From Henricia sp. BOLD:AAB3569 (Eukaryota; Echinodermata; Asteroidea; Spinulosida; Echinasteridae): a DNA stretch of 64,000 nucleotides. The position numbers were made by a program, and so were the translations under genes. Shown here piece by piece: positions 1-45,290 of this stretch (within the stretch, counting starts at the first letter, position 1; each line of letters opens with the position of its first letter). The stretch lies in NCBI GenBank assembly GCA_037783545.1, contig JBBELK010000561.1, positions 1 to 64,000 on the forward strand, written 5' to 3'. The notes below the pieces were generated by a model. The model was not told the DNA's origin. It saw only the letters and a list, made by a program, of their open reading frames with translations, and made no database searches.

Positions 1-200
1 ATGCAAAATTGACAGATTTTCGCTGGGAAATGACGGAGAAATTTCAGAGTTTAGGGAAAGCGCAGCTCGGCTACGTGGTTATTCTTCTAACCGTGGCTGT
101 TGGGACACCCTGCGCTGCGCTTGTGTACATTTGTACGGCCGTTGACTCACCCCAGATTGTGACGGGAATTAGGTCAAAGTGTGTCCCAAATGCCGGCAAA

Positions 201-290
201 TTTGGAAATCAAGGAATTTTCCAACCAACTTCAAATTTTGCATGCTCCAAACTGTATATATTCCGCACTTGTCATGCAAAATTGACAGAT
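201..290 (+). repeat. Core block shared with satellite B (example in an A unit)
   Basis: From tttggaaatc (201) to about the end of gacagatttt (290) the A unit aligns with the B unit. In the first 47 alignment columns about 40 are identical, including AACTTCAAATTTTGC without a gap. The following 37 positions match at about 23, and similarity then fades. The rest of each unit (about 170 bp in A, about 105 bp in B) shows no alignment I can see. The B counterpart starts at about 44,677. The block occurs in nearly every unit of both arrays; only one example is given. Confidence 0.85.
202..224 (+). other. Inverted repeat in the core block (A unit example)
   Basis: TTGGAAA (202-208) and TTTCCAA (218-224) form 7-bp arms around a 9-base loop, with a nested GGAATTTTCC. 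The B unit keeps a shorter version, TGGAA and TTCCA, around ggaatttcc at the matching place. Every intact A unit repeats it, so it recurs every 273 bp. Confidence 0.7.
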
Positions 291-3200
291 TTTCGCTGGG
301 AAATGACGGAGAAATTTCAGAGTTTAGGGAAAGCGCAGCTCGGCTACGTGGTTATTCTTCTAACCGTGGCTGTTGGGACACCCTGCGCTGCGCTTGTGTA
401 CATTTGTACGGCCGTTGACTCACCCCAGATTGTGACGGGAATTAGGTCAAAGTGTGTCCCAAATGCCGGCAAATTTGGAAATCAAGGAATTTTCCAACCA
501 ACTTCAAATTTTGCATGCTCCAAACTGTATATATTCCGCACTTGTCATGCAAAATTGACAGATTTTCGCTGGGAAATGACGGAGAAATTTCAGAGTTTAG
601 GGAAAGCGCAGCTCGGCTACGTGGTTATTCTTCTAACCGTGGCTGTTGGGACACCCTGCGCTGCGCTTGTGTACATTTGTACGGCCGTTGACTCACCCCA
701 GATTGTGACGGGAATTAGGTCAAAGTGTGTCCCAAATGCCGGCAAATTTGGAAATCAAGGAATTTTCCAACCAACTTCAAATTTTGCATGCTCCAAACTG
801 TATATATTCCGCACTTGTCATGCAAAATTGACAGATTTTCGCTGGGAAATGACGGAGAAATTTCAGAGTTTAGGGAAAGCGCAGCTCGGCTACGTGGTTA
901 TTCTTCTAACCGTGGCTGTTGGGACACCTCTGCGCTGCGCTTGTGTACATTTGTACGGCCGTTGACTCACCCCAGATTGTGACGGGAATTAGGTCAAAGT
1001 GTGTCCCAAATGCCGGCAAATTTGGAAATCAAGGAATTTTCCAACCAACTTCAAATTTTGCATGCTCCAAACTGTATATATTCCGCACTTGTCATGCAAA
1101 ATTGACAGATTTTCGCTGGGAAATGACGGAGAAATTTCAGAGTTTAGGGAAAGCGCAGCTCGGCTACGTGGTTATTCTTCTAACCGTGGCTGTTGGGACA
1201 CCCTGCGCTGCGCTTGTGTACATTTGTACGGCCGTTGACTCACCCCAGATTGTGACGGGAATTAGGTCAAAGTGTGTCCCAAATGCCGGCAAATTTGGAA
1301 ATCAAGGAATTTTCCAACCAACTTCAAATTTTGCATGCTCCAAACTGTATATATTCCGCACTTGTCATGCAAAATTGACAGATTTTCGCTGGGAAATGAC
1401 GGAGAAATTTCAGAGTTTAGGGAAAGCGCAGCTCGGCTACGTGGTTATTCTTCTAACCGTGGCTGTTGGGACACCCTGCGCTGCGCTTGTGTACATTTGT
1501 ACGGCCGTTGACTCACCCCAGATTGTGACGGGAATTAGGTCAAAGTGTGTCCCAAATGCCGGCAAATTTGGAAATCAAGGAATTTTCCAACCAACTTCAA
1601 ATTTTGCATGCTCCAAACTGTATATATTCCGCACTTGTCATGCAAAATTGACAGATTTTCGCTGGGAAATGACGGAGAAATTTCAGAGTTTAGGGAAAGC
1701 GCAGCTCGGCTACGTGGTTATTCTTCTAACCGTGGCTGTTGGGACACCCTGCGCTGCGCTTGTGTACATTTGTACGGCCGTTGACTCACCCCAGATTGTG
1801 ACGGGAATTAGGTCAAAGTGTGTCCCAAATGCCGGCAAATTTGGAAATCAAGGAATTTTCCAACCAACTTCAAATTTTGCATGCTCCAAACTGTATATAT
1901 TCCGCACTTGTCATGCAAAATTGACAGATTTTCGCTGGGAAATGACGGAGAAATTTCAGAGTTTAGGGAAAGCGCAGCTCGGCTACGTGGTTATTCTTCT
2001 AACCGTGGCTGTTGGGACACCCTGCGCTGCGCTTGTGTACATTTGTACGGCCGTTGACTCACCCCAGATTGTGACGGGAATTAGGTCAAAGTGTGTCCCA
2101 AATGCCGGCAAATTTGGAAATCAAGGAATTTTCCAACCAACTTCAAATTTTGCATGCTCCAAACTGTATATATTCCGCACTTGTCATGCAAAATTGACAG
2201 ATTTTCGCTGGGAAATGACGGAGAAATTTCAGAGTTTAGGGAAAGCGCAGCTCGGCTACGTGGTTATTCTTCTAACCGTGGCTGTTGGGACACCCTGCGC
2301 TGCGCTTGTGTACATTTGTACGGCCGTTGACTCACCCCAGATTGTGACGGGAATTAGGTCAAAGTGTGTCCCAAATGCCGGCAAATTTGGAAATCAAGGA
2401 ATTTTCCAACCAACTTCAAATTTTGCATGCTCCAAACTGTATATATTCCGCACTTGTCATGCAAAATTGACAGATTTTCGCTGGGAAATGACGGAGAAAT
2501 TTCAGAGTTTAGGGAAAGCGCAGCTCGGCTACGTGGTTATTCTTCTAACCGTGGCTGTTGGGACACCCTGCGCTGCGCTTGTGTACATTTGTACGGCCGT
2601 TGACTCACCCCAGATTGTGACGGGAATTAGGTCAAAGTGTGTCCCAAATGCCGGCAAATTTGGAAATCAAGGAATTTTCCAACCAACTTCAAATTTTGCA
2701 TGCTCCAAACTGTATATATTCCGCACTTGTCATGCAAAATTGACAGATTTTCGCTGGGAAATGACGGAGAAATTTCAGAGTTTAGGGAAAGCGCAGCTCG
2801 GCTACGTGGTTATTCTTCTAACCGTGGCTGTTGGGACACCCTGCGCTGCGCTTGTGTACATTTGTACGGCCGTTGACTCACCCCAGATTGTGACGGGAAT
2901 TAGGTCAAAGTGTGTCCCAAATGCCGGCAAATTTGGAAATCAAGGAATTTTCCAACCAACTTCAAATTTTGCATGCTCCAAACTGTATATATTCCGCACT
3001 TGTCATGCAAAATTGACAGATTTTCGCTGGGAAATGACGGAGAAATTTCAGAGTTTAGGGAAAGCGCAGCTCGGCTACGTGGTTATTCTTCTAACCGTGG
3101 CTGTTGGGACACCCTGCGCTGCGCTTGTGTACATTTGTACGGCCGTTGACTCACCCCAGATTGTGACGGGAATTAGGTCAAAGTGTGTCCCAAATGCCGG

Positions 3201-6200
3201 CAAATTTGGAAATCAAGGAATTTTCCAACCAACTTCAAATTTTGCATGCTCCAAACTGTATATATTCCGCACTTGTCATGCAAAATTGACAGATTTTCGC
3301 TGGGAAATGACGGAGAAATTTCAGAGTTTAGGGAAAGCGCAGCTCGGCTACGTGGTTATTCTTCTAACCGTGGCTGTTGGGACACCCTGCGCTGCGCTTG
3401 TGTACATTTGTACGGCCGTTGACTCACCCCAGATTGTGACGGGAATTAGGTCAAAGTGTGTCCCAAATGCCGGCAAATTTGGAAATCAAGGAATTTTCCA
3501 ACCAACTTCAAATTTTGCATGCTCCAAACTGTATATATTCCGCACTTGTCATGCAAAATTGACAGATTTTCGCTGGGAAATGACGGAGAAATTTCAGAGT
3601 TTAGGGAAAGCGCAGCTCGGCTACGTGGTTATTCTTCTAACCGTGGCTGTTGGGACACCCTGCGCTGCGCTTGTGTACATTTGTACGGCCGTTGACTCAC
3701 CCCAGATTGTGACGGGAATTAGGTCAAAGTGTGTCCCAAATGCCGGCAAATTTGGAAATCAAGGAATTTTCCAACCAACTTCAAATTTTGCATGCTCCAA
3801 ACTGTATATATTCCGCACTTGTCATGCAAAATTGACAGATTTTCGCTGGGAAATGACGGAGAAATTTCAGAGTTTAGGGAAAGCGCAGCTCGGCTACGTG
3901 GTTATTCTTCTAACCGTGGCTGTTGGGACACCCTGCGCTGCGCTTGTGTACATTTGTACGGCCGTTGACTCACCCCAGATTGTGACGGGAATTAGGTCAA
4001 AGTGTGTCCCAAATGCCGGCAAATTTGGAAATCAAGGAATTTTCCAACCAACTTCAAATTTTGCATGCTCCAAACTGTATATATTCCGCACTTGTCATGC
4101 AAAATTGACAGATTTTCGCTGGGAAATGACGGAGAAATTTCAGAGTTTAGGGAAAGCGCAGCTCGGCTACGTGGTTATTCTTCTAACCGTGGCTGTTGGG
4201 ACACCCTGCGCTGCGCTTGTGTACATTTGTACGGCCGTTGACTCACCCCAGATTGTGACGGGAATTAGGTCAAAGTGTGTCCCAAATGCCGGCAAATTTG
4301 GAAATCAAGGAATTTTCCAACCAACTTCAAATTTTGCATGCTCCAAACTGTATATATTCCGCACTTGTCATGCAAAATTGACAGATTTTCGCTGGGAAAT
4401 GACGGAGAAATTTCAGAGTTTAGGGAAAGCGCAGCTCGGCTACGTGGTTATTCTTCTAACCGTGGCTGTTGGGACACCCTGCGCTGCGCTTGTGTACATT
4501 TGTACGGCCGTTGACTCACCCCAGATTGTGACGGGAATTAGGTCAAAGTGTGTCCCAAATGCCGGCAAATTTGGAAATCAAGGAATTTTCCAACCAACTT
4601 CAAATTTTGCATGCTCCAAACTGTATATATTCCGCACTTGTCATGCAAAATTGACAGATTTTCGCTGGGAAATGACGGAGAAATTTCAGAGTTTAGGGAA
4701 AGCGCAGCTCGGCTACGTGGTTATTCTTCTAACCGTGGCTGTTGGGACACCCTGCGCTGCGCTTGTGTACATTTGTACGGCCGTTGACTCACCCCAGATT
4801 GTGACGGGAATTAGGTCAAAGTGTGTCCCAAATGCCGGCAAATTTGGAAATCAAGGAATTTTCCAACCAACTTCAAATTTTGCATGCTCCAAACTGTATA
4901 TATTCCGCACTTGTCATGCAAAATTGACAGATTTTCGCTGGGAAATGACGGAGAAATTTCAGAGTTTAGGGAAAGCGCAGCTCGGCTACGTGGTTATTCT
5001 TCTAACCGTGGCTGTTGGGACACCCTGCGCTGCGCTTGTGTACATTTGTACGGCCGTTGACTCACCCCAGATTGTGACGGGAATTAGGTCAAAGTGTGTC
5101 CCAAATGCCGGCAAATTTGGAAATCAAGGAATTTTCCAACCAACTTCAAATTTTGCATGCTCCAAACTGTATATATTCCGCACTTGTCATGCAAAATTGA
5201 CAGATTTTCGCTGGGAAATGACGGAGAAATTTCAGAGTTTAGGGAAAGCGCAGCTCGGCTACGTGGTTATTCTTCTAACCGTGGCTGTTGGGACACCCTG
5301 CGCTGCGCTTGTGTACATTTGTACGGCCGTTGACTCACCCCAGATTGTGACGGGAATTAGGTCAAAGTGTGTCCCAAATGCCGGCAAATTTGGAAATCAA
5401 GGAATTTTCCAACCAACTTCAAATTTTGCATGCTCCAAACTGTATATATTCCGCACTTGTCATGCAAAATTGACAGATTTTCGCTGGGAAATGACGGAGA
5501 AATTTCAGAGTTTAGGGAAAGCGCAGCTCGGCTACGTGGTTATTCTTCTAACCGTGGCTGTTGGGACACCCTGCGCTGCGCTTGTGTACATTTGTACGGC
5601 CGTTGACTCACCCCAGATTGTGACGGGAATTAGGTCAAAGTGTGTCCCAAATGCCGGCAAATTTGGAAATCAAGGAATTTTCCAACCAACTTCAAATTTT
5701 GCATGCTCCAAACTGTATATATTCCGCACTTGTCATGCAAAATTGACAGATTTTCGCTGGGAAATGACGGAGAAATTTCAGAGTTTAGGGAAAGCGCAGC
5801 TCGGCTACGTGGTTATTCTTCTAACCGTGGCTGTTGGGACACCCTGCGCTGCGCTTGTGTACATTTGTACGGCCGTTGACTCACCCCAGATTGTGACGGG
5901 AATTAGGTCAAAGTGTGTCCCAAATGCCGGCAAATTTGGAAATCAAGGAATTTTCCAACCAACTTCAAATTTTGCATGCTCCAAACTGTATATATTCCGC
6001 ACTTGTCATGCAAAATTGACAGATTTTCGCTGGGAAATGACGGAGAAATTTCAGAGTTTAGGGAAAGCGCAGCTCGGCTACGTGGTTATTCTTCTAACCG
6101 TGGCTGTTGGGACACCCTGCGCTGCGCTTGTGTACATTTGTACGGCCGTTGACTCACCCCAGATTGTGACGGGAATTAGGTCAAAGTGTGTCCCAAATGC

Positions 6201-7559
6201 CGGCAAATTTGGAAATCAAGGAATTTTCCAACCAACTTCAAATTTTGCATGCTCCAAACTGTATATATTCCGCACTTGTCATGCAAAATTGACAGATTTT
6301 CGCTGGGAAATGACGGAGAAATGTCAGAGTTTAGGGAAAGCGCAGCTCGGCTACGTGGTTATTCTTCTAACCGTGGCTGTTGGGACACCCTGCGCTGCGC
6401 TTGTGTACATTTGTACGGCCGTTGACTCACCCCAGATTGTGACGGGAATTAGGTCAAAGTGTGTCCAAATGCCGGCAAATTTGGAAATCAAGGAATTTTC
6501 CAACCAACTTCAAATTTTGCATGCTCCAAACTGTATATATTCCGCACTTGTCATGCAAAATTGACAGATTTTCGCTGGGAAATGACGGAGAAATTTCAGA
6601 GTTTAGGGAAAGCGCAGCTCGGCTACGTGGTTATTCTTCTAACCGTGGCTGTTGGGACACCCTGCGCTGCGCTTGTGTACATTTGTACGGCCGTTGACTC
6701 ACCCCAGATTGTGACGGGAATTAGGTCAAAGTGTGTCCCAAATGCCGGCAAATTTGGAAATCAAGGAATTTTCCAACCAACTTCAAATTTTGCATGCTCC
6801 AAACTGTATATATTCCGCACTTGTCATGCAAAATTGACAGATTTTCGCTGGGAAATGACGGAGAAATTTCAGAGTTTAGGGAAAGCGCAGCTCGGCTACG
6901 TGGTTATTCTTCTAACCGTGGCTGTTGGGACACCCTGCGCTGCGCTTGTGTACAATGAAAGGCCGTTGACTCACCCCAGATTGTGACGGGAATTAGGTCA
7001 AAGTGTGTCCCAAATGCCGGCAAATTTGGAAATCAAGGAATTTTCCAACCAACTTCAAATTTTGCATGCTCCAAACTGTAGATATTCCGCACTTGTCATG
7101 CAAAATTTACAGATTTTCGCTGGGAAATGACGGAGAAATTTCAGAGTTTAGGGAAAGCGCAGCTCGGCTACGTGGTTATTCTTCTAACCGTGGCTGTTGG
7201 GACACCCTGCGCTGAGCTTGTGTACATTTGTACGGCCGTTGACTCACCCCAGATTGTGACGGGAATTAGGTCAAAGTGTGTCCCACATGACGGCAAATTT
7301 GGAAATCAAGGAATTTTCCAACCAACTTCAAATTTTGCATGCTCCAAACTGTATATATTCCGCACTTATCATGCAAAATTGACAGATTTTCGCTGGGAAA
7401 TGACGGAGAAATTTCAGAGTTTAGGGAAAGCGCAGCTCGGCTACGTGGTTATTCTTCTAACCGTGGCTGTTGGGACACCCTGCGCTGCGCTTGTGTACAT
7501 TTGTACGGCCGTTGACTCACCCCAGATTGTGACGGGAATTAGGTCAAAGTGTGTCCCAA

Positions 7560-10500
7560 ATGCCGGCAAATTTGGAAATCAAGGAATTTTCCAACCAACT
7601 TCAAATTTTGCATGCTCCAAACTGTATATATTCCGCACTTGTCATGCAAAATTGACAGATTTTCGCTGGGAAATGACGGAGAAATTTCAGAGTTTAGGGA
7701 AAGCGCAGCTCGGCTACGTGGTTATTCTTCTAACCGTGGCTGTTGGGACACCCTGCGCTGCGCTTGTGTACAATGGAAAGGCCGTTGACTCACCCCAGAT
7801 TGTGACGGGAATTAGGTCAAAGTGTGTCCCAAATGCCGGCAAATTTGGAAATCAAGGAATTTTCCAACCAACTTCAAATTTTGCATGCTCCAAACTGTAT
7901 ATATTCCGCACTTGTCATGCAAAATTGACAGATTTTCGCCGGGAAATGACGGAGAAATTTCAGAGTTTAGGGAAAGCGCAGCTCGGCTACGTGGTTATTC
8001 TTCTAACCGTGGCTGTTGGGACACCCTGCGCTGCGCTTGTGTACATTTGTACGGCCGTTGACTCACCCCAGATTGTGACGGGAATTAGGTCAAAGTGTGT
8101 CCCAAATGCCGGCAAATTTGGAAATCAAGGAATTTTCCAACCAACTTCAAATTTTGCATGCTCCAAACTGTATATATTCCGCACTTGTCATGCAAAATTG
8201 ACAGATTTTCGCTGGGAAATGACGGAGAAATTTCAGAGTTTAGGGAAAGCGCAGCTCGGCTACGTGGTTATTCTTCTAACCGTGGCTGTTGGGACACCCT
8301 GCGCTGCGCTTGTGTACATTTGTACGGCCGTTGACTCACCCCAGATTGTGACGGGAATTAGGTCAAAGTGTGTTCCAAATGCCGGCAAATTTGGAAATCA
8401 AGGAATTTTCCAACCAACTTCAAATTTTGCATGCTCCAAACTGTATATATTCCGCACTTGTCATGCAAAATTGACAGATTTTCGCTGGGAAATGACGGAG
8501 AAATGTCAGAGTTTAGGGAAAGCGCAGCTCGGCTACGTGGTTATTCTTCTAACCGTGGCTGTTGGGACACCCTGCGCTGCGCTTGTGTACATTTGTACGG
8601 CCGTTGACTCACCCCAGATTGTGACGGGAATTAGGTCAATGTGTGTCCCAAATGCCGGCAAATTTGGAAATCAAGGAATTTTCCAACCAACTTCAAATTT
8701 TGCATGCTCCAAACTGTATATATTCCGCACTTGTCATGCAAAATTGACAGATTTTCGCTAGGAAAAGACGGAGAAATTTCAGAGTTTAGGGAAAGCGCAG
8801 CTCGGCTACGTGGTTATTCTTCTAACCGTGGCTGTTGGGACACCCTGCGCTGCGCTTGTGTACATTTGTACGGCCGTTGACTCACCCCAGATTGTGACGG
8901 GAATTAGGTCAAAGTGTGTCCCAAATGCCGCAAATTTGGAAATCAAGGAATTTTCCAACCAACTTCAAATTTTGCATGCTCCAAACTGTATATATTCCGC
9001 ACTTGTCATGCAAAATTGACAGATTTTCGCTGGGAAATGACGGAGAAATTTCAGAGTTTAGGGAAAGCGCAGCTCGGCTACGTGGTTATTCTTCTAACCG
9101 TGGCTGTTGGGACACCCTGCGCTGCGCTTGTGTACATTTGTACGGCCGTTGACTCACCCCATATTGTGACGGGAATTAGGTCAAAGTGTGTCCCAAATGC
9201 CGGCAAATTTGGAAATCAAGGAATTTTCCAACCAACTTCAAATTTTGCATGCTCCAAACTGTATATATTCCGCACTTGTCATGCAAAATTGACAGATTTT
9301 CGGTGGGAAATGACGGAGAAATTTCAGAGTTTAGGGAAAGCGCAGCTCGGCTACGTGGTTATTCTTCTAACCGTGGCTGTTGGGACACCCTGCGCTGCGC
9401 TTGTGTACATTTGTACGGCCGTTGACTCACCCCAGATTGTGACGGGAATTAGGTCAAAGTGTGTCCCAAATGCCGGCAAATTTGGAAATCAAGGAATTTT
9501 CCAACCAACTTCAAATTTTGCATGCTCCAAACTGTATATATTCCGCACTTGTCATGCAAAATTGACAGATTTTCGCTGGGAAATGACGGAGAAATTTCAG
9601 AGTTTAGGGAAAGCGCAGCTCGGCTACGTGGTTATTCTTCTAACCGTGGCTGTTGGGACACCCTGCGCTGCGCTTGTGTACATTTGTACGGCCGTTGACT
9701 CACCCCAGATTGTGACGGGAATTAGGTCAAAGTGTGTCCCAAATGCCGGCAAATTTGGAAATCAAGGAATTTTCCAACCAACTTCAAATTTTGCATGCTC
9801 CAAACTGTATATATTCCGCACTTGTCATGCAAAATTGACAGATTTTCGCTGGGAAATGACGGAGAAATTTCAGAGTTTAGGGAAAGCGCAGCTCGGCTAC
9901 GTGGTTATTCTTCTAACCGTGGCTGTTGGGACACCCTGCGCTGCGCTTGTGTACATTTGTACGGCCGTTGACTCACCCCAGATTGTGACGGGAATTAGGT
10001 CAAAGTGTGTCCCAAATGGCGGCAAATTTGGAAATCAAGGAATTTTCCAACCAACTTCAAATTTTGCATGCTCCAAACTGTATATATTCCGCACTTGTCA
10101 TGCAAAATTGACAGATTTTCGCTGGGAAATGACGGAGAAATTTCAGAGTTTAGGGAAAGCGCAGCTCGGCTACGTGGTTATTCTTCTAACCGTGGCTGTT
10201 GGGACACCCTGCGCTGCGCTTGTGTACAATGGAAAGGCCGTTGACTCACCCCAGATTGTGACGGGAATTAGGTCAAAGTGTGTCCCAAATGCCGGCAAAT
10301 TTGGAAATCAAGGAATTTTCCAACCAACTTCAAATTTTGCATGCTCCAAACTGTATATATTCCGCACTTGTCATGCAAAATTGACAGATTTTCGCCGGGA
10401 AATGACGGAGAAATTTCAGAGTTTAGGGAAAGCGCAGCTCGGCTACGTGGTTATTCTTCTAACCGTGGCTGTTGGGACACCCTGCGCTGCGCTTGTGTAC

Positions 10501-11757
10501 ATTTGTACGGCCGTTGACTCACCCCAGATTGTGACGGGAATTAGGTCAAAGTGTGTCCCAAATGCCGGCAAATTTGGAAATCAAGGAATTTTCCAACCAA
10601 CTTCAAATTTTGCATGCTCCAAACTGTATATATTCCGCACTTGTCATGCAAAATTGACAGATTTTCGCTGGGAAATGACGGAGAAATTTCAGAGTTTAGG
10701 GAAAGCGCAGCTCGGCTACGTGGTTATTCTTCTAACCGTGGCTGTTGGGACACCCTGCGCTGCGCTTGTGTACATTTGTACGGCCGTTGACTCACCCCAG
10801 ATTGTGACGGGAATTAGGTCAAAGTGTGTTCCAAATGCCGGCAAATTTGGAAATCAAGGAATTTTCCAACCAACTTCAAATTTTGCATGCTCCAAACTGT
10901 ATATATTCCGCACTTGTCATGCAAAATTGACAGATTTTCGCTGGGAAATGACGGAGAAATGTCAGAGTTTAGGGAAAGCGCAGCTCGGCTACGTGGTTAT
11001 TCTTCTAACCGTGGCTGTTGGGACACCCTGCGCTGCGCTTGTGTACATTTGTACGGCCGTTGACTCACCCCAGATTGTGACGGGAATTAGGTCAAAGTGT
11101 GTCCCAAATGCCGGCAAATTTGGAAATCAAGGAATTTTCCAACCAACTTCAAATTTTGCATGCTCCAAACTGTATATATTCCGCACTTGTCATGCAAAAT
11201 TGACAGATTTTCGCTAGGAAAAGACGGAGAAATTTCAGAGTTTAGGGAAAGCGCAGCTCGGCTACGTGGTTATTCTTCTAACCGTGGCTGTTGGGACACC
11301 CTGCGCTGCGCTTGTGTACATTTGTACGGCCGTTGACTCACCCCAGATTGTGACGGGAATTAGGTCAAAGTGTGTCCCAAATGCCCGCAAATTTGGAAAT
11401 CAAGGAATTTTCCAACCAACTTCAAATTTTGCATGCTCCAAACTGTATATATTCCGCACTTGTCATGCAAAATTGACAGATTTTCGCTGGGAAATGACGG
11501 AGAAATTTCAGAGTTTAGGGAAAGCGCAGCTCGGCTACGTGGTTATTCTTCTAACCGTGGCTGTTGGGACACCCTGCGCTGCGCTTGTGTACATTTGTAC
11601 GGCCGTTGACTCACCCCATATTGTGACGGGAATTAGGTCAAAGTGTGTCCCAAATGCCGGCAAATTTGGAAATCAAGGAATTTTCCAACCAACTTCAAAT
11701 TTTGCATGCTCCAAACTGTATATATTCCGCACTTGTCATGCAAAATTGACAGATTTT
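7560..11757 (+). repeat. Duplicated 1.74-kb A1 segment, offset 2,456 bp
   Basis: The segment at about 7,560-9,300 recurs at about 10,016-11,757. Both copies carry, in order, the caatggaaagg block, cgccggg, tgttccaaatgcc with gagaaatgtcag, cgctaggaaaagacgg, and caccccatattg. The offset is nine units minus one base, explained by a missing base near 8,929 (gccgcaaat) in the first copy. The second copy has gcccgcaaat at that place. Segment ends are approximate. Confidence 0.8.
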
Positions 11758-30865: not shown

Positions 30866-30934
30866 TGCGCATGCGCTGGTGTACATTTGTACGGCCGTTG
30901 ACTCACCCCAGATTGTGACGGGAATTAGGTCAAA
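30760..30934 (+). repeat. Second copy of the truncated A2 unit (175 bp)
   Basis: The junction is the same as in the unit at 28,105-28,273. This copy is 6 bp longer because its tail carries the gcgcatgcgctggtg variant. It came with the 2,655-bp-offset duplication, and the duplication tract ends inside this unit just before the 6-bp difference. Confidence 0.88.
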
Positions 30935-34500: not shown

Positions 34501-34717
34501 GGTCAAAGTGTGTCCCAAATGCCGGCAAATTTGGAAATCAAGGAATTTTCCAACCAACTTCAAATTTTGCATGCTCCAAACTGTATATATTCCGCACTTG
34601 TCATGCAAAATTGACAGATTTTCGCTGGGAAATGACGGAGAAATTTCAGAGTTTAGGTAAAGCGGAGCTCGGCTACGTGGTTATTCCCCTAACCGTGGCT
34701 GTTGGGACACCCTGCGC
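31590..34717 (+). repeat. Seven-unit A2 higher-order repeat, offset 1,917 bp (first set)
   Basis: The segment at about 31,590-32,800 recurs at about 33,507-34,717. Shared markers are gccggaaaatttgg with gatgttcgc, gaatttttcaacc with caactttaaat, caagggattttcc followed by a 279-bp unit, and ttaggtaaagcgg. The offset equals six 273-bp units plus one 279-bp unit. A related cluster (gatgttcgc, caactttaaat, caagggatt) also lies at about 28,274-29,099. Confidence 0.83.
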
Positions 34718-34780
34718 TGCGCTTGTGTACATTTGTACGGCCGTTGACTCACCCCAGATTGTGACGGGAATTAGGTCAAA

Positions 34781-35053
34781 GTGTGTCCCAAATGCCGGCA
34801 AATTTGGAAATCAAGGAATTTTCCAACCAACTTCAAATTTTGCATGCTCCAAACTGTATATATTCCGCACTTGTCATGCAAAATTGACAGATTTTCGCTG
34901 GGAAATGACGGAGAAATTTCAGAGTTTAGGGAAAGCGCAGCTCGGCTACGTGGTTATTCTTCTAACCGTGGCTGTTGGGACACCCTGCGCTGCGCTTGTG
35001 TACATATGTACGGCCGTTGACTCACCCCAGATTGTGACGGGAATTAGGTCAAA
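34781..35053 (+). repeat. A1-type unit embedded in the A2 subarray
   Basis: This single unit reads gcgcagctcgg and attcttcta, the two A1 diagnostics, although about 10 kb of A2 lies on either side. It also has tacatatgtacgg, a variant seen nearby in an A2 unit at about 32,812. That mix suggests a short conversion tract or a double exchange, not a whole imported A1 unit. Confidence 0.88.
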
Positions 35054-35191
35054 GTGTGTCCCAAATGCCGGCAAATTTGGAAATCAAGGAATTTTCCAAC
35101 CAACTTCAAATTTTGCATGCTCCAAACTGTATATATTCCGCACTTGTCATGCAAAATTGACAGATTTTCGCTGGGAAATGACGGAGACATT

Positions 35192-38100
35192 TCAGAGTTT
35201 AGGGAAAGCGGAGCTCGGCTACGTGGTTATTCCCCTAACCGTGGCTGTTGGGACACCCTGCGCTGCGCTTGTGTACATTTGTACGGCCGTTGACTCACCC
35301 CAGATTGTGACGGGAATTAGGTCAAAGTGTGTCCCAAATGCCGGCAAATTTGGAAATCAAGGAATTTTCCAACCAACTTCAAATTTTGCATGCTCCAAAC
35401 TGTATATATTCCGCACTTGTCATGCAAAATTGACAGATTTTCGCTGGGAAATGACGGAGACATTTCAGAGTTTAGGGAAAGCGGAGCTCGGCTACGTGGT
35501 TATTCCCCTAACCGTGGCTGTTGGGACACCCTGCGCTGCGCTTGTGTACATTTGTACGGCCGTTGACTCACCCCAGATTGTGACGGGAATTAGGTCAAAG
35601 TGTGTCCCAAATGCCGGCAAATTTGGAAATCAAGGAATTTTCCAACCAACTTCAAATTTTGTATGCTCCAAACTGTATATATTCCGCACTTGTCATGCAA
35701 AATTGACAGATTTTCGCTAGGAAATGACGGAGAAATTTCAGAGTTTAGGGAAAGCGGAGCTCGGCTACGTGGTTATTCTCCTAACCGTGGCTGTTGGGAC
35801 ACCCTGCGCTGTGCATGCGCTGGTGTACATTTGTACGGCCGTTGACTCACCCCAGATTGTGACGGGAATTAGGTCAAAGTGTGTCCCAAATGCCGGCAAA
35901 TTTGGAAATCAAGGAATTTTCCAACCAACTTCAAATTTTGCATGCTCCAAACTATATATATTCCGCACTTGTCATGCAAAATTGACAGATTTTCGCTGGG
36001 AAATGACGGAGAAATTTCAGAGTTTAGGGAAAGCGGAGCTCGGCTACGTGGTTATTCCCCTAACCGTGGCTGTTGGGACACCCTGCGCTGCGCTTGTGTA
36101 CATTTGTACGGCCGTTGACTCACCCCAGATTGTGACGGGAATTAGGTCAAAGTGTGTCCCAAATGCCGGCAAATTTGGAAATCAAGGAATTTTCCAACCA
36201 ACTTCAAATTTTGCATGCTCCAAACTGTATATATTCCGCACTTGTCATGCAAAATTGACAGATGTTCGCTGGGAAATGACGGAGAAATTTCAGAGTTTAG
36301 GGAAAGCGGAGCTCGGCTATGTGGTTATTCCCCTAACCGTGGCTGTTGGGACACCCTGCGCTGCGCTGGTGTACATTTGTACGGCCGTTGACTCACCCCA
36401 GATTGTGACGGGAATTAGGTCAAAGTGTGTCCCAAATGCCGGCAAATTTGGAAATCAAGGAATTTTCCAACCAACTTCAAATTTTGCATGCTCCAAACTG
36501 TATATATTCCGCACTTGTCATGCAAAATTGACAGATTTTCGCTGGGAAATGACGGAGAAATTTCAGAGTTTAGGGAAAGCGGAGCTCGGCTACGTGGTTA
36601 TTCCCCTAACCGTGGCTGTTGGGACACCCTGCGCTGCGCTGGTGTACATTTGTACGGCCGTTGACTCACCCCAGATTGTGACGGGAATTAGGTCAAAGTG
36701 TGTCCCAAATGCCGGCAAATTTGGAAATCAAGGGATTTTCCAACCAACTTCAAATTTTGCATGCTCCAAACTGTACATATTCCGCACTTGTCATGCACAA
36801 TTGACAGATTTTCGCTGGGAAATGACGGAGAAATTTCAGAGTTTAGGGAAAGCGGAGCTCGGCTACGTGGTTATTCCCCTAACCGTGGCTGTTGGGACAC
36901 CCTGCGCTGCGCTGGTGTACATTTGTACGGCCGTTGACTCACCCCAGATTGTGACGGGAATTAGGTCAAAGTGTGTCCCAAATGCCGGCAAATTTAGAAA
37001 TCAAGGAATTTTCCAACCAACTTCAAATTTTGCATGCTCCAAACTGTATATATTCCGCACTTGTCATGCAAAATTGACAGATTTTCGCTGGGAAATGACG
37101 GAGAAATTTCAGAGTTTAGGGAAAGCGGAGCTCGGCTACGTGGTTATTCCCCTAACCGTGGCTGTTGGGACACCCTGCGCTGCGCTTGTGTACATTTGTA
37201 CGGCCGTTGACTCACCCCAGATTGTGACGGGAATTAGGTCAAAGTGTGTCCCAAATGCCGGCAAATTTGGAAATCAAGGAATTTTCCAACCAACTTCAAA
37301 TTTTGCATGCTCCAAACTGTATATATTCCGCACTTGTCATGCAAAATTGACAGATTTTCGCTGGGAAATGACGGAGACATTTCAGAGTTTAGGGAAAGCG
37401 GAGCTCGGCTACGTGGTTATTCCCCTAACCGTGGCTGTTGGGACACCCTGCGCTGCGCTTGTGTACATTTGTACGGCCGTTGACTCACCCCAGATTGTGA
37501 CGGGAATTAGGTCAAAGTGTGTCCCAAATGCCGGCAAATTTGGAAATCAAGGAATTTTCCAACCAACTTCAAATTTTGTATGCTCCAAACTGTATATATT
37601 CCGCACTTGTCATGCAAAATTGACAGATTTTCGCTAGGAAATGACGGAGAAATTTCAGAGTTTAGGGAAAGCGGAGCTCGGCTACGTGGTTATTCTCCTA
37701 ACCGTGGCTGTTGGGACACCCTGCGCTGTGCATGCGCTGGTGTACATTTGTACGGCCGTTGACTCACCCCAGATTGTGACGGGAATTAGGTCAAAGTGTG
37801 TCCCAAATGCCGGCAAATTTGGAAATCAAGGAATTTTCCAACCAACTTCAAATTTTGCATGCTCCAAACTATATATATTCCGCACTTGTCATGCAAAATT
37901 GACAGATTTTCGCTGGGAAATGACGGAGAAATTTCAGAGTTTAGGGAAAGCGGAGCTCGGCTACGTGGTTATTCCCCTAACCGTGGCTGTTGGGACACCC
38001 TGCGCTGCGCTTGTGTACATTTGTACGGCCGTTGACTCACCCCAGATTGTGACGGGAATTAGGTCAAAGTGTGTCCCAAATGCCGGCAAATTTGGAAATC

Positions 38101-39291
38101 AAGGAATTTTCCAACCAACTTCAAATTTTGCATGCTCCAAACTGTATATATTCCGCACTTGTCATGCAAAATTGACAGATGTTCGCTGGGAAATGACGGA
38201 GAAATTTCAGAGTTTAGGGAAAGCGGAGCTCGGCTATGTGGTTATTCCCCTAACCGTGGCTGTTGGGACACCCTGCGCTGCGCTGGTGTACATTTGTACG
38301 GCCGTTGACTCACCCCAGATTGTGACGGGAATTAGGTCAAAGTGTGTCCCAAATGCCGGCAAATTTGGAAATCAAGGAATTTTCCAACCAACTTCAAATT
38401 TTGCATGCTCCAAACTGTATATATTCCGCACTTGTCATGCAAAATTGACAGATTTTCGCTGGGAAATGACGGAGAAATTTCAGAGTTTAGGGAAAGCGGA
38501 GCTCGGCTACGTGGTTATTCCCCTAACCGTGGCTGTTGGGACACCCTGCGCTGCGCTGGTGTACATTTGTACGGCCGTTGACTCACCCCAGATTGTGACG
38601 GGAATTAGGTCAAAGTGTGTCCCAAATGCCGGCAAATTTGGAAATCAAGGGATTTTCCAACCAACTTCAAATTTTGCATGCTCCAAACTGTACATATTCC
38701 GCACTTGTCATGCACAATTGACAGATTTTCGCTGGGAAATGACGGAGAAATTTCAGAGTTTAGGGAAAGCGGAGCTCGGCTACGTGGTTATTCCCCTAAC
38801 CGTGGCTGTTGGGACACCCTGCGCTGCGCTGGTGTACATTTGTACGGCCGTTGACTCACCCCAGATTGTGACGGGAATTAGGTCAAAGTGTGTCCCAAAT
38901 GCCGGCAAATTTAGAAATCAAGGAATTTTCCAACCAACTTCAAATTTTGCATGCTCCAAACTGTATATATTCCGCACTTGTCATGCAAAATTGACAGATT
39001 TTCTCTGGGAAATGACGGAGAAATTTCAGAGTTTAGGGAAAGCGGAGCTCGGCTACGTGGTTATTCCCCTAACCGTGGCTGTTGGGACACCCTGCGCTGC
39101 GCTTGTGTACATTTGTACGGCCGTTGACTCACCCCAGATTGTGACGGGAATTAGGTCAAAGTGTGTCCCAAATGCCGGCAAATTTGGAAATCAAGGAATT
39201 TTCCAACCAACTTCAAATTTTGCATGCTCCAAACTGTATATATTCCGCACTTGTCATGCAAAATTGACAGATTTTCGCTGGGAAATGACGG
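35192..39291 (+). repeat. Seven-unit A2 higher-order repeat, offset 1,917 bp (second set)
   Basis: The segment at about 35,192-37,374 recurs at about 37,109-39,291. Shared markers in order are gagacatttc, attttgtatgctcc with cgctaggaa, attctccta with gtgcatgcgctgg, aaactatatata, gatgttcgc with ggctatgtgg, caagggatt with ctgtacatattcc and catgcacaatt, and aaatttagaaatc. One private change in the second copy is gattttctctggg near 39,002. Confidence 0.86.
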
Positions 39292-41090
39292 AGAAATTTC
39301 AGAGTTTAGGGAAAGCAGAGCTCGGCTACGTGGTTATTCCCCTAACCGTGGCTGTTGGGACACCCTGCGCTGCGCATGCGCTGGTGTACATTTGTACGGC
39401 CGTTGACTCACCCCAGATTGTGACGGGAATTAGGTCAAAGTGTGTCCTAAATGCCGGCAAATTTGGAAATCAAGGGATTTTCCAACCAACTTCAAATTTT
39501 GCATGCTCCAAACTGTATATATTTCGCACTTGTCATGCAAAATTGACAGATTTTCGCTGGGAAATGACGGAGAAATTTCAGAGTTTAGGGAAAGCGGAGC
39601 TCGGCTACGTGGTTATTCCCCTAACCGTGGCTGTTGGGACACCCTGCGCTGCGCTGGTGTACATTTGTACGGCCGTTGACTCACCCCAGATTGTGACGGG
39701 AATTAGGTCAAAGTGTGTCCCAAATGCCGGCAAATTTAGAAATCAAGGAATTTTCCAACCAACTTCAAATTTTGCATGCTCCAAACTGTATATATTCCGC
39801 ACTTGTCATGCAAAATTGACAGATTTTCGCTGGGAAATGACGGAGAAATTTCAGAGTTTAGGGAAAGCGGAGCTCGGCTACGTGGTTATTCCCCTAACCG
39901 TGGCTGTTGGGACACCCTGCGCTGCGCTTGTGTACATTTGTACGGCCGTTGACTCACCCCAGATTGTGACGGGAATTAGGTCAAAGTGTGTCCCAAATGC
40001 CGGCAAATTTGGAAATCAAGGAATTTTCCAACCAACTTCAAATTTTGCATGCTCCAAACTGTATATATTCCGCACTTGTCATGCAAAATTGACAGATTTT
40101 CGCTGGGAAATGACGGAGAAATTTCAGAGTTTAGGGAAAGCGGAGCTCGGCTACGTGGTTATTCCCCTAACCGTGGCTGTTGGGACACCCTGCGCTGCGC
40201 ATGCGCTGGTGTACATTTGTACGGCCGTTGACTCACCCCAGATTGTGACAGGAATTAGGTCAAAGTGTGTCCCAAATGCCGGCAAATTTGGAAATCAAGG
40301 GATTTTCCAACCAACTTCAAATTTTGCATGCTCCAAACTGTATATATTCCGCACTTGTCATGCAAAATTGACAGATTTTCGCTGGGAAATGACGGAGAAA
40401 TTTCAGAGTTTAGGGAAAGCGGAGCTCGGCTACGTGGTTATTCCCCTAACCGTGGCTGTTGGGACACCCTGCGCTGCGCTGGTGTACATTTGTACGGCCG
40501 TTGACTCACCCCAGATTGTGACGGGAATTAGGTCAAAGTGTGTCCCAAATGCCGGCAAATTTAGAAATCAAGGAATTTTCCAACCAACTTCAAATTTTGC
40601 ATGCTCCAAACTGTATATATTCCGCACTTGTCATGCAAAATTGACAGATTTTCGCTGGGAAATGACGGAGAAATTTCAGAGTTTAGGGAAAGCGGAGCTC
40701 GGCTACGTGGTTATTCCCCTAACCGTGGCTGTTGGGACACCCTGCGCTGCGCTTGTGTACATTTGTACGGCCGTTGACTCACCCCAGATTGTGACGGGAA
40801 TTAGGTCAAAGTGTGTCCCAAATGCCGGCAAATTTGGAAATCAAGGAATTTTCCAACCAACTTCAAATTTTGCATGCTTCAAACTGTATATATTCCGCAC
40901 TTGTCATGCAAAATTGACAGATTTTCGCTGGGAAATGACGGAGAAATTTCAGAGTTTAGGGAAAGCGGAGCTCGGCTACGTGGTTATTCCCCTAACCGTG
41001 GCTGTTGGGACACCCTGCGCTGCGCATGCGCTGGTGTACATTTGTACGGCCGTTGACTCACCCCAGATTGTGACGGGAATTAGGTCAAAG
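38750..41090 (+). repeat. Three-unit A2 higher-order repeat, 825 bp, about 2.5-3 copies
   Basis: Units beginning at 39,161, 39,440 and 39,713 recur at 39,986, 40,265 and 40,538, with the pattern continuing into 40,811. Lengths are 279, 273 and 273. Markers are gcgcatgcgctggtg in the first, caagggattttcc with gcgctggtg in the second and aaatttagaaatc in the third. Private changes include gtcctaaatgcc near 39,448, atatttcgc near 39,520 and gaaagcagagc near 39,315. Confidence 0.85.
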
Positions 41091-44050
41091 TGTGTCCCAA
41101 ATGCCGGCAAATTTCGAAATCAAGGAATTTTCCAACCAACTTCAAATTTTGCATGCACCAAACTGTATATATTCCGCACTTGTCATGCAAAATTGACAGA
41201 TTTTCGCTGGGAAATGACGGAGAAATTTCAGAGTTTAGGGAAAGCGGAGCTCGGCTACGTGGTTATTCCCCTAACCGTGGCTGTTGGGACACCCTGCGCT
41301 GCGCTTGTGTACATTTGTACGGCCGTTGACTCACCCCAGATTGTGACGGGAATTAGGTCAAAGTGTGTCCCAAATGCCGGCAAATTTGAAAATCAAATAA
41401 TTTTCCAACCAACTTCAAATTTTGCATGCTCCAAACTGTATATATTCCGCACTTGTCATGCAAAATTGACAGATTTTCGCTGGGAAATGACGGAGAAATT
41501 TCAGAGTTTAGGGAAAGCGGAGCTCGGCTACGTGGTTATTCCCCTAACCGTGGCTGTTGGGACACCCTGCGCTGCGCATGCGCTGGTGTACATTTGTACG
41601 GCCGTTGACTCACCCCAGATTGTGACGGGAATTAGGTCAAAGTGTGTCCCAAATGCCGGCAAATTTGGAAATCAAGGAATTTTCCAACCAACTTCAAATT
41701 TTGCATGCTCCAAACTGTATATATTCCGCACTTGTCATGCAAAATTGACAGATTTTCGCTGGGAAATGACGGAGAAATTTCAGAGTTTAGGGAAAGCGGA
41801 GCTCGGCTACGTGGTTATTCCCCTAACCGTGGCTGTTGGGACACCCTGCGCTGCGCTTGTGTACATTTGTACGGCCGTTGACTCACCCCAGATTGTGACG
41901 GGAATTAGGTCAAAGTGTGTCCCAAATGCCGGCAAATTTGGAAATCAAGGAATTTTCCAACCAACTTCAAATTTTGCATGCTCCAAACTGTATATATTCC
42001 GCACTTGTCATGCAAAATTGACAGATTTTCGCTGGGAAATGACGGAGAAATTTCAGAGTTTAGGGAAAGCGGAGCTCGGCTACGTGGTTATTCCCCTAAC
42101 CGTGGCTGTTGGGACACCCTGCGCTGCGCTGGTGTACATTTGTACGGCCGTTGACTCACCCCAGATTGTGACGGGAATTAGGTCAAAGTGTGTCCCAAAT
42201 GCCGGCAAATTTAGAAATCAAGGAATTTTCCAACCAACTTCAAATTTTGCATGCTCCAAACTGTATATATTCCGCACTTGTCATGCAAAATTGACAGATT
42301 TTCGCTGGGAAATGACGGAGAAATTTCAGAGTTTAGGGAAAGCGGAGCTCGGCTACGTGGTTATTCCCCTAACCGTGGCTGTTGGGACACCCTGCGCTGC
42401 GCTTGTGTACATTTGTACGGCCGTTGACTCACCCCAGATTGTGACGGGAATTAGGTCAAAGTGTGTCCCAAATGCCGGCAAATTTGGAAATCAAGGAATT
42501 TTCCAACCAACTTCAAATTTTGCATGCTCCAAACTGTATATATTCCGCACTTGTCATGCAAAATTGACAGATTTTCGCTGGGAAATGACGGAGAAATTTC
42601 AGAGTTTAGGGAAAGCGGAGCTCGGCTACGTGGTTATTCCCCTAACCGTGGCTGTTGGGACACCCTGCGCTGCGCTTGTGTACATTTGTACGGCCGTTGA
42701 CTCACCCCAGATTGTGACGGGAATTAGGTCAAAGTGTGTCCCAAATGCCGGCAAATTTGGAAATCAAGGAATTTTCCAACCAACTTCAAATTTTGCATGC
42801 TTCAAACTGTATATATTCCGCACTTGTCATGCAAAATTGACAGATTTTCGCTGGGAAATGACGGAGAAATTTCAGAGTTTAGGGAAAGCGGAGCTCGGCT
42901 ACGTGGTTATTCCCCTAACCGTGGCTGTTGGGACACCCTGCGCTGCGCATGCGCTGGTGTACATTTGTACGGCCGTTGACTCACCCCAGATTGTGACGGG
43001 AATTAGGTCAAAGTGTGTCCCAAATGCCGGCAAATTTGGAAATCAAGGAATTTTCCAACCAACTTCAAATTTTGCATGCTCCAAACTGTATATATTCTGC
43101 ACTTGTCATGCAAAATTGACAGATTTTCGCTGGGAAATGACGGAGAAATTTCAGAGTTTAGGGAAAGCGGAGCTCGGCTACGTGGTTATTCCCCTAACCG
43201 TGGCTGTTGGGACACCCTGTGCTGCGCTTGTGTACATTTGTACGGCCGTTGACTCACCCCAGATTGTGACGGGAATTAGGTCAAAGTGTGTCCCAAATGC
43301 CGGCAAATTTGAAAATCAAATAATTTTCCAACCAACTTCAAATTTTGCATGCTCCAAACTGTATATATTCCGCACTTGTCATGCAAAATTGACAGATTTT
43401 CGCTGGGAAATGACGGAGAAATTTCAGAGTTTAGGGAAAGCGGAGCTCGGCTACGTGGTTATTCCCCTAACCGTGGCTGTTGGGACACCCTGCGCTGCGC
43501 ATGCGCTGGTGTACATTTGTACGGCCGTTGACTCACCCCAGATTGTGACGGGAATTAGGTCAAAGTGTGTCCCAAATGCCGGCAAATTTGGAAATCAAGG
43601 AATTTTCCAACCAACTTCAAATTTTGCATGCTCCAAACTGTATATATTCCGCACTTGTCATGCAAAATTGACAGATTTTCGCTGGGAAATGACGGAGAAA
43701 TTTCAGAGTTTAGGGAAAGCGGAGATCGGCTACGTGGTTATTCCCCTAACCGTGGCTGTTGGGACACCCTGCGCTGCGCTTGTGTACATTTGTACGGCCG
43801 TTGACTCACCCCAGATTGTGACGGGAATTAGGTCAAAGTGTGTCCCAAATGCCGGCAAATTTGGAAATCAAGGAATTTTCCAACCAACTTCAAATTTTGC
43901 ATGCTCCAAACTGTATATATTCCGCACTTGTCATGCAAAATTGACAGATTTTCGCTGGGAAATGACGGAGAAATTTCAGAGTTTAGGGAAAGCGGAGCTC
44001 GGCTACGTGGTTATTCCCCTAACCGTGGCTGTTGGGACACCCTGCGCTGC
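40565..44050 (+). repeat. Seven-unit A2 higher-order repeat, offset 1,923 bp
   Basis: The segment at about 40,565-42,127 recurs at about 42,490-44,050. Shared markers are gcatgcttcaaac in a 279-bp unit, then a plain unit, then gaaaatcaaataattttcc (near 41,388 and 43,311) in another 279-bp unit. The offset equals five 273-bp plus two 279-bp units. This is the last higher-order repeat before the switch to satellite B. Confidence 0.83.
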
Positions 44051-44279
44051 GCATGCGCTGGTGTACATTTGTACGGCCGTTGACTCACCCCAGATTGTGA
44101 CGGGAATTAGGTCAAAGTGTGTTCCAAATGCCGGCAAATTTGGAAATCAAGGAATTTTCCAACCAACTTCAAATTTTGCATGCTCCAAACTGTATATATT
44201 CCGCACTTGTCATGCAAAATTGACAGATTTTCGCTGGGAAATGACGGAGAAATTTCAGAGTTTAGGGAAAGCGGAGCTC

Positions 44280-44296
44280 GGCTACGTAGACAAACT
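44280..44296 (+). other. Junction of satellite A to satellite B
   Basis: The last A unit breaks after ggctacgt (ending 44,287), and the next base begins agacaaac inside a B unit. No spacer or inserted element lies between them, and I see no shared bases beyond chance. The two families share a homologous block elsewhere in their units, but they are not aligned at this point. The first B unit carries the rare B3 marker gcctgcttaaac at about 44,307-44,318. Confidence 0.92.
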
Positions 44297-44306
44297 TCAA
44301 ATTGTG

Positions 44307-44318
44307 CCTGCTTAAACA
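44307..44318 (+). repeat. B3 marker variant (first of eight)
   Basis: The bases gcctgcttaaac replace gcctgctataac, always preceded by aaattgt. The C of cttaaac falls at 44,311, 46,350, 49,187, 53,492, 55,132, 57,387, 60,440 and 62,694. Intervals are 10, 14, 21, 8, 11, 15 and 11 units after allowing for the 11-bp and 1-bp deletions. At the seven internal sites the preceding unit ends in gtagctattttggaactagagg-type sequence, so the marker tracks a linked haplotype. Confidence 0.8.
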
Positions 44319-44357
44319 ACTCTATATCCCAAACGTGTTCTGCAAATTTCAGCAATT

Positions 44358-44374
44358 TCCCGTTTAAACCGACC
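44358..44374 (-). other. CENP-B-box-like motif in B1 units (example)
   Basis: On the minus strand this site reads ggtcggtttaaacggga. Against the CENP-B box NTTCGNNNNANNCGGGN it matches eight of nine defined positions; the first T is G. It contains the palindrome GTTTAAAC. B1 units carry the site. B2 and hybrid units have GTTCAAAC, which loses a second defined position. By simple base-frequency arithmetic a match this good is expected by chance in about 4% of unrelated 205-bp units, so it is suggestive only. CENP-B is known mainly from mammals. Confidence 0.35.
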
Positions 44375-44470
44375 GAGTTATCGTCGAATCTAGCAAAAAC
44401 TCCCTGCCGGCACAGTTTTCGCACAAGCAGACGCCTCTTTCGGGAAACATTGCGTCTGAAGTGGTCGCTA

Positions 44471-45290
44471 TCTTGGAACTGAAGGAATTTCCAGACAAAC
44501 TTCAAATTTTGCCTGCTATAACAATTCTATATCCCAAACGTGTTCTGCAAATTTCACCAATTTCCCGTTCAAACCGACCGAGTTATCGTCGAATATAGCA
44601 CAAACTCCCTGCCGGCACAGTTTTCGCACAAGCAGACGCCTCTTTCGGGAAACATTGCGTCTGAGGTGGTCGCTATTTTGGAACTGAAGGAATTTCCAGA
44701 CAAACTTCAAATTTTGCCTGCTATTACAACTCTATATCCCAACCGTGTTCTGCAAATTTCAGCAATTTCCCGTTTAAACCGACCGAGTTATCGTCGAATC
44801 TAGCAAAAACTCCCTGCCGGCACAGTTTTCGCACAAGCAGACGCCGCTTTCGGGAAACATTTCGTCTGAAGTGGTCGCTATCTTGGAACTGAAGGAATTT
44901 CCAGACAAACTTCAAATTTTGCCTGCTATAACAATTCTATATCCCAAACGTGTTCTGCAAATTTCACCAATTTCCCGTTCAAACCGACCGAGTTATCGTC
45001 GAATATAGCACAAACTCCCTGCCGGCACAGTTTTCGCACAAGCAGACGCCTCTTTCGGGAAACATTGCGTCTGAGGTGGTCGCTATTTTGGAACTGAAGG
45101 AATTTCCAGACAAACTTCAAATTTTGCCTGCTATTACAACTCTATATCCCAACCGTGTTCTGCAAATTTCAGCAATTTCCCGTTTAAACCGACCGAGTTA
45201 TCGTCGAATCTAGCAAAAACTCCCTGCCGGCACAGTTTTCGCACAAGCAGACGCCGCTTTCGGGAAACATTTCGTCTGAAGTGGTAGCTA
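44471..45290 (+). repeat. Two-unit B higher-order repeat, two copies, 410 bp
   Basis: The B2-B1 pair at 44,471-44,880 recurs at 44,881-45,290. Each pair has cgctatcttgg, ctataacaattc, a B2 body with gaggtgg, ctattacaactc with ccaaccgtg, a B1 body with gacgccgctttc, and gaaacatttcg. Confidence 0.82.
44677..44760 (+). repeat. Core block shared with satellite A (example in a B unit)
   Basis: The best part, 44,677-44,722, runs from tttggaactgaagg through aacttcaaattttgc to tgct and matches the A unit with two single-base gaps. Beyond it, ctctatatccc, gtgtt and tgcaaattt align with ctgtatatattcc, cttgt and tgcaaaatt of A. Orientation is the same in both arrays. Confidence 0.83.

Follow-up and report, generated by a model that had tools for sequence, protein, structure and literature searches.

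How do two satellites of different unit length come to share one segment? The question is raised by a 64,000-nucleotide stretch of DNA from the starfish Henricia sp. BOLD:AAB3569 (assembly GCA_037783545.1, first part of contig JBBELK010000561.1, here C561), referred to below as the window. Two tandem arrays together fill it: satellite A, with a 273-bp unit, and satellite B, with a 205-bp unit, and their units align over a common core. A and B are probably two branches of a single abundant satellite superfamily, similar by common descent and most similar where divergence has been slowest. Rather than a shuffled module, the core that both retain is most likely that part of an ancestral unit which changes slowly and keeps its length. 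What began as a case of two repeats is in this way extended to some half a million units within a single genome, all of one superfamily, in which at least five classes of unit length have a constant domain in common.

The shared core of A and B

The best local alignment of the two consensus units, in the same orientation, covers 96 columns, of which 73 are identical, 15 mismatched and 8 gapped. It scores 67, while 1000 dinucleotide shuffles averaged 17.9 and never exceeded 32; A against the reverse complement of B reaches 19 at best. A second scoring scheme gave 55 against a shuffle maximum of 24. Agreement is weaker with very cheap gap extension (479; shuffle mean 307, maximum 440; z 5.4). 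The shuffles rule out chance similarity, and the shared core of about 100 bp reported in a preliminary description of this DNA is real. That description had also named a trivial low-complexity match as fatal to its proposal. This is excluded by a 19-mer from the core, AACTTCAAATTTTGCNTGC, which has 510,441 matches in the assembly at no more than one mismatch, compared with 5 for the reversed pattern. The head-to-tail arrays, with 161 and 96 copies in the window, and the assembly-wide count identify the repeats as satellite DNA.

Further families and abundance

The scanned assembly comprises 740.7 Mb in 2,104 contigs; counts were made by pattern matching with limited mismatches, each accompanied by a control pattern. 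At 2 mismatches, a B-type 24-mer has 181,432 matches, an A-type 25-mer, which also catches part of families C and D (see below), 284,636, and an E-type 33-mer 12,335; all three controls gave 0. Multiplied by 205–296 bp per unit, the 19-mer count corresponds to about 105–151 Mb, roughly 14–20% of the assembly. Satellite of the superfamily was also present in 20 of 40 short stretches lying 10 or 20 kb from contig starts (12/20 and 8/20), a sample weighted by contig and not by base. By a rough estimate, chance alone could account for a single match to the 19-mer in a viral contig (L009).

A third repeat carrying the core had been suggested as something to look for elsewhere in the genome, and several exist. 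Family C, with its close variant C2, forms arrays of 295–296-bp units; family D, with a 294-bp unit, forms short arrays on contig C3; family E, with a 253-bp unit, forms an array on C940. The consensus units of A, C and D can be aligned over their full length with 82–88% identity of aligned bases, and E is a full-length relative of these three at 81–86%. The shared parent that the preliminary description had considered is borne out by these full-length relatives (81–88%) and by B, which is in register with them over about 150 of its 205 bp. Judged by full-length homology for A, C, D and E and by in-register homology for B, families A to E are one satellite superfamily. Among the matches listed in the open-access literature there was no starfish satellite of this kind, which leaves an unpublished status unproven; searches by unit length or core letters likewise returned nothing relevant among the matches listed.

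How far the homology of B extends

The position of B in this superfamily depends on how much of its unit is related to the others. A profile of A, C, D and E aligns with positions 13–173 of B at an E-value of 4.6e-19 (with the doubled B unit as the only sequence searched). In register with E, positions 127–175 of B show 28/49 matches and positions 147–175 show 19/29, neither of which was reached in 5000 shuffles. Positions 127–145 are inside the core as defined here (21–145) and beyond the A/B local alignment. When four B-type units were each compared with five other consensus units over positions 127–175, p was ≤ 0.018 in all 20 cases. A divergent relative of B (L030) matches D at 17/29 of positions 147–175 in register (p 0.0002); for B itself against A, C and D, the same segment gives p 0.05–0.07. 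Gapped tests of the non-core part gave p ≤ 0.0175 for B against E, p 0.001 for the local comparison of sub-type B2 with D, and values below 0.05 for several other B-type pairings.

By these comparisons, in-register homology covers some 150 of the 205 bp of B (about positions 24–175) and leaves about 50 bp unexplained. The earlier statement that the other 105 bp of B look unrelated is therefore corrected for positions 127–175, which match E in register; in the last 30 and the first 22 or so, no convincing relation to the other families was seen.

Gradual divergence or modular exchange

The consensus units of A, C, D and E consist of two domains that differ in their mode of change. Positions 1–160 contain no gap column in any of the six pairs of these families, while positions 161–294 contain 2–60. 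Substitutions are rarer in positions 1–160 than in the rest in all six pairs, significantly so in three (A–C, A–D and C–D). Identity in the core (positions 21–145) compared with the rest is 92% vs 78% for A–D, 89% vs 76% for C–D and 82% vs 68% for A–C. The GC content is 0.39–0.44 in positions 1–160 and 0.57–0.59 in the second domain. Across 21 consensus pairs, which are not independent, distances in the core and in the rest follow a similar ranking (Spearman 0.85).

As an alternative, a copy of the core may have been fused to unrelated sequence and the chimera amplified to give B, so that core and rest would differ in origin. Gapped comparisons of the non-core part of B with A, C and D (p 0.06–0.80) and the lack of detectable similarity in B 176–205 are in keeping with such an exchange. 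Out-of-register junctions between A and B also exist, which means that chimeric units can form. One is in the window at 44287, where A stops at unit position 181, outside the core, and B starts at position 54, inside it; no microhomology was seen there by eye. At the other, on C693 at about 243,552, position 17 of A is followed by position 28 of B as read by eye, and GTC is common to both sides. These two inter-family junctions were the ones found, both abrupt, as are the junctions with other DNA.

Against an exchange, the in-register homology does not end with the A/B local alignment, and its continuation is clearest in comparisons with E or the divergent relative of B. Furthermore, simulated gradual divergence at 0.5–0.7 substitutions per site combined with deletion, a rate derived by hand from the observed consensus divergences, lowers the score to 15 or less in 21–46% of trials (7% at 0.4 substitutions per site). 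Since gradual divergence can hide similarity to this extent, exchange is not needed to account for B. We regard a chimeric origin of the unit as quite doubtful. The modular exchange that had been proposed for the rest of the unit is not required, though it may account for about 50 bp of B; with the intermediate families in hand, the apparent exchange of modules between satellites largely dissolves.

Several results weigh against common descent of the whole B unit, or against its rate-based explanation. The difference in substitution rate between positions 1–160 and the rest is significant in only three of six pairs; the trees of core and rest are weakly resolved, and E is placed differently in the two. 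The gapped non-core tests of B itself are significant only with E, those with A, C or D giving the p values of 0.06–0.80 already mentioned. For three other B-type units these tests are mixed (L030 unit against E, p 0.12–1.0). The reversed non-core part of B scores 15.5 against E, compared with 22.5 in true orientation (B2, 13.5 and 29.5). Because the gapped tests are mixed and reversed B scores fairly high, reliance is placed on the in-register test, whose register is fixed by the core. In that test, positions 1–22 of B give p > 0.05 in 18 of 20 pairings, and the last 30 or so (176–205) have no detectable similarity to A, C, D or E. As the ends of B are without convincing similarity to the other families, that part may have been replaced. 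Finally, the 14–20% share of the assembly is a product of k-mer counts and unit lengths, with no masking of the assembly behind it.

Common descent from one ancestral unit, the reading favoured here, would proceed as follows. The ancestral unit would have combined a domain of about 160 bp, kept in length, with a GC-rich domain, at most about 135 bp long, in which mutation was fast and blocks were lost or gained. We infer an ancestral length of probably about 295 bp, because C and D have that length. Repeated local amplification of single variants may then have established families A (273 bp), B (205 bp), C (295–296 bp), D (294 bp) and E (253 bp), which would have diverged afterwards. B would be the most diverged branch, with most of its missing 70–90 bp probably lost from the variable domain. 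The arrays themselves may be passive tandem arrays of a heterochromatin type, homogenised by unequal exchange, in which the constant domain plausibly persists through good nucleosome wrapping.

Helical-scale periodicity of the constant domain

A/T dinucleotides recur in the constant domain with a period of 11.3 bp in A, C, C2, D and E, and of 10.4 bp in B and B2. This helical-scale period is the strongest spectral component (among periods of 4–30) in all seven consensus sequences, with shuffle p ≤ 0.012 in each, and p was ≤ 0.050 in all 20 alternative windows, for which a slightly wider period band was used. Of 206 GC-matched windows elsewhere in the genome, 0–5 reach the same power. In the GC-rich domain of the five sequences long enough, the periodicity is not significant (p 0.058–0.94). 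In other satellites, a helical A/T periodicity has been tied to nucleosome wrapping (PMC5844345).

These data bear on a further proposal, namely that the constant domain is selected as a chromatin element that positions or bends a nucleosome, possibly a centromeric one, with the variable domain as linker. Units of 205–296 bp would then represent one nucleosome plus linkers of different length. This is compatible with common descent and goes further. In addition to the periodicity, which does not reach significance in the variable domain, the constant length of about 160 bp fits such a role, as does the persistence of the signal in B at 31–39% divergence, a level retained in 2–8% of simulations of neutral decay. 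On the other hand, the families are homologous, so that their p values repeat one ancestral signal and are not independent tests. Both period and phase differ between B/B2 and the other five; whole units reach p < 0.05 in only four of seven consensus sequences, and the core is not less polymorphic than the rest within B and C. Selection for such an element appears unlikely on present sequence evidence. Nucleosome wrapping by the constant domain is nevertheless plausibly the best testable role that remains.

In its strictest form the proposal describes a satellite with a fixed nucleosome and a free linker, in which selection would prevent length change in the helically phased domain (about 160 bp) and leave the GC-rich linker free to vary; we give this form little credence. 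Were it true, arrays of 205, 253, 273 and 294–296 bp would be a natural series differing mainly in linker length, and the linker length of (possibly centromeric) chromatin would be an evolving trait that can be read in DNA. If the constant domain is the footprint of a nucleosome, the families could serve as a series for testing the effect of linker length on heterochromatin or centromere chromatin.

Selection, recombination and candidate binding sites

The preliminary description regarded the core as possibly under selection, and as the best candidate for a functional or recombination-active element. Slower change of the core between families agrees with the first idea; diversity within families agrees with it less well. 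Within-family diversity (pi) in core and rest is 0.0173 and 0.0220 in A (102 monomers), 0.0316 and 0.0208 in C (176 monomers), and 0.0551 and 0.0393 in B (229 monomers, with sub-type B2 pooled in). In the window arrays only, the values are 0.0095 and 0.0219 for A, and 0.0455 and 0.0319 for B. The core is hence no less variable than the rest in B and C and slightly less variable in A. Purifying selection, as read from within-family diversity, is not seen in B and C; in A it is clear only in the window array and weak elsewhere.

Recombination activity of the core found no support. Tracts of at least three diagnostic sites from another family were found in none of 736 monomers (249 of A, 174 of C and 313 of B), so ongoing conversion between families is not what keeps the cores alike, and is rejected. 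Irregular junctions number only 10 among 729 monomer pieces of 14 arrays, and 10 of their 20 breakpoint ends lie in the core, where about 9 are expected in this small sample. Shortened A units occur in the window at 13078–13134, 23798–24327, 27996–28336 and 30651–30997, with overlaps of 2–6 bp at their breakpoints; two of them share an identical breakpoint, which suggests one event that was probably copied later.

The core might alternatively be a protein-binding box, either a CENP-B-like box or the dyad, that is selected and used in recombination between satellites, as has been suggested for Meloidogyne. A 17-mer in B and B2 has 8 of the 9 essential positions of the CENP-B box and 12–13/17 identities; shuffled B units reach 8 essential positions in 5.4% of cases, and 8 together with 12/17 identities in 1.3%. 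The best matches in A, C, C2, D and E reach no more than 6–7 of 9 and are located elsewhere. Within B, none of the 17 positions varies more than an essential A (pi 0.393 in 313 monomers), 193 of the 313 monomers keep at least 8 of 9, and the window copy listed in Table 1 has the common variant in which an essential A is disrupted. No box with all nine essential positions conserved in many monomers was found; the best is 8/9, in B and B2 only. The dyad, an inverted repeat with 7-bp arms, is present in the A consensus only (p 0.011); at its site in B, C, D and E the best arms are 4–5 bp (p 0.22–0.64), which leaves its suggested function unsupported. Given also that breakpoints are not enriched in the core, a binding box is a very improbable explanation.

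Transposable elements and dispersed copies

Both satellites could also have been seeded by a transposable element that contained the core. About 1.9 units of B are found inside a dispersed element rich in inverted repeats (C61:59613–60006, L036), of which the assembly has 797 first-look candidates, and divergent B dimers occur on C64. Two other copies of this element were checked (L080 and L081), and both are without B at that place; the insert is about 97–99% identical to the B consensus. Taken together, its closeness to the consensus and the two copies without B point to a recent arrival in an existing element. This element, the one candidate screened, is thus rejected as the parent of B, the B stretch being an insertion there. 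No Rfam match at the gathering threshold was obtained in the window, and none at E ≤ 1 in 43700–44900; an RNA gene or an origin from a tRNA or short interspersed element (SINE) is rejected, since neither Rfam nor ARAGORN gave a match in the window. A transposable element as common source has very little in its favour. Short stretches of B are able to enter other DNA.

Several dispersed relatives were observed in addition. On C64, at 3.29–3.31 Mb (L030–L033), divergent B-like units of 209 bp form short stretches that include the dimers; near-identical matches between L030 and L032 and between L031 and L033 suggest duplicated segments. A lone B-like relic (L010:3985–4137 on C2; L084 on C50) shares about 69% identity with B along 131 columns and directly adjoins a C array; the piece has 9 copies in the assembly at 99–100% identity. 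A short inverted-repeat element with ends GGGCTGCTTTCGAGCGC... is inserted in D arrays and near C arrays (L013 on C3 at about 2.82 Mb, L010 on C2, L084 on C50). A retrotransposon-like fragment, of non-LTR (long terminal repeat) type by eye and with 3' ATT repeats, lies in a B array (L016:1773–3729, C1224).

Layout of the window and other observations

The preliminary description was right in seeing two adjacent arrays; its span of 201..44760 starts too late, as Tandem Repeats Finder (TRF) places the start of A at base 1. Array A includes 158 full-length copies, with unit spacings of 273 bp in 119/160 cases and 279 bp in 26/160. Array B continues past the window to the end of the contig (C561:73575); its spacings within the window are 205 bp in 89/96 and 194 bp in 6/96. 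Identity between A units is flat, at 0.987–0.989 over lags 1–15. In B (44288–64000) there is a weak higher-order pattern, with identity slightly raised at lags 5 (0.957) and 10 (0.962) compared with 0.946 at lag 3. Feature coordinates are collected in Table 1.

Table 1. Features of the satellite arrays, in window coordinates.
Feature	Position	Strand	Remarks
Satellite array A	1..44287	+	TRF period 273, 161.3 copies; a few shortened units
Constant-length AT-rich domain, unit positions 1–160, first complete A unit	169..328	+	no indels among A, C, D and E consensus
Core, unit positions 21–145, first A unit	189..313	+	used in core/rest comparisons
Inverted repeat (dyad), 7-bp arms	202..224	n/a	A only among five consensus units
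Variable-length GC-rich domain, unit positions 161–273, first complete A unit	329..441	+	
Abrupt A to B junction	44287..44288	n/a	from sequence and alignment
Satellite array B	44288..64000	+	TRF period 205, 96.5 copies in window
Core, unit positions 21–145, first complete B unit (44440–44644)	44460..44584	+	
Extended B-unit segment, positions 24–175	44463..44614	+	in-register homology to E, weaker to A, C, D
CENP-B-box-like 17-mer of B	44563..44579	-	B consensus has 8/9 'essential' positions
B-unit end, positions 176–205	44615..44644	+	no detectable relative in A, C, D, E

Other repeats were noted elsewhere in the assembly: a pure (CTAACC)n array of 133 copies, the vertebrate-type telomere repeat (L074, C666:10000–10799); a 189-bp tandem repeat that by eye is 5S rDNA-like (L070, C455); and a 165-bp tandem repeat that by eye apparently bears a tRNA (L050, C860). 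Contig C955 holds the mitochondrial genome as three tandem copies 16,221 bp apart (L027, L028, L029), and a fourth COX1 match is on C2104. The COX1 on C955 appears, judged by eye at conserved positions, to need AAA=Asn, AGA=Ser and TGA=Trp (table 9, the code of echinoderms and flatworms); upstream of it, 9 of 13 tRNAs and an ND1-like frame lie on the opposite strand. The arrangement is the one found in starfish. The 16,221-bp spacing is in line with the mitochondrial genomes of Linckia (16,211–16,365 bp) and Asterias (16,419–16,421 bp; PMC7341131). Together these features indicate an echinoderm, probably a starfish, as host. Searches for WRKY and 7tm_6, aimed at a plant or an insect host, were negative, though no positive control accompanied them.

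Comparison with known satellites

The A/T dinucleotide helical periodicity resembles the WW periodicity of about 10 bp in Drosophila centromeric repeats (PMC5844345) and in rice CentO, which that paper cites; there it is linked to cenH3 nucleosomes, while here it is known from sequence alone.

In the satellite library of Meloidogyne chitwoodi and M. fallax (PMC3694981), several satellites within a single genome have, despite low overall identity, a low-variability domain in common, as here, and a CENP-B-box-like motif is present. The Meloidogyne Box 1 and Box 2 lie exactly at the monomer junctions of mixed arrays. In Henricia, by contrast, the core is not preferred by the 10 irregular junctions, the two junctions between A and B are unlike, and only B has the box-like motif.

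Abrupt junctions and short stretches associated with dispersed elements are shared with mollusc satellites such as BIV160 and Cg170 (PMC5139131). Some of the mollusc repeats are parts of Helitron elements, whereas the single case described here is an insertion into an existing element.

The PcP190 satellite of leptodactylid and hylodid frogs has, within one monomer, a conserved and a variable part (94–169 of about 190 in two species), the latter flanked by conserved sequence; it makes up 1.6–6.5% of the genome by dot blot and is described as derived from 5S rDNA (PMC4201667). The Henricia superfamily resembles it in combining both kinds of sequence in one monomer. An origin from a 5S rRNA gene receives no support here, with 0 Rfam matches in the A/B window, and the estimated abundance is higher than that of PcP190. 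Whereas PcP190 units of 183–190 bp have been compared mainly between species (PMC4201667), the starfish families coexist in one genome, with units of 205–296 bp.

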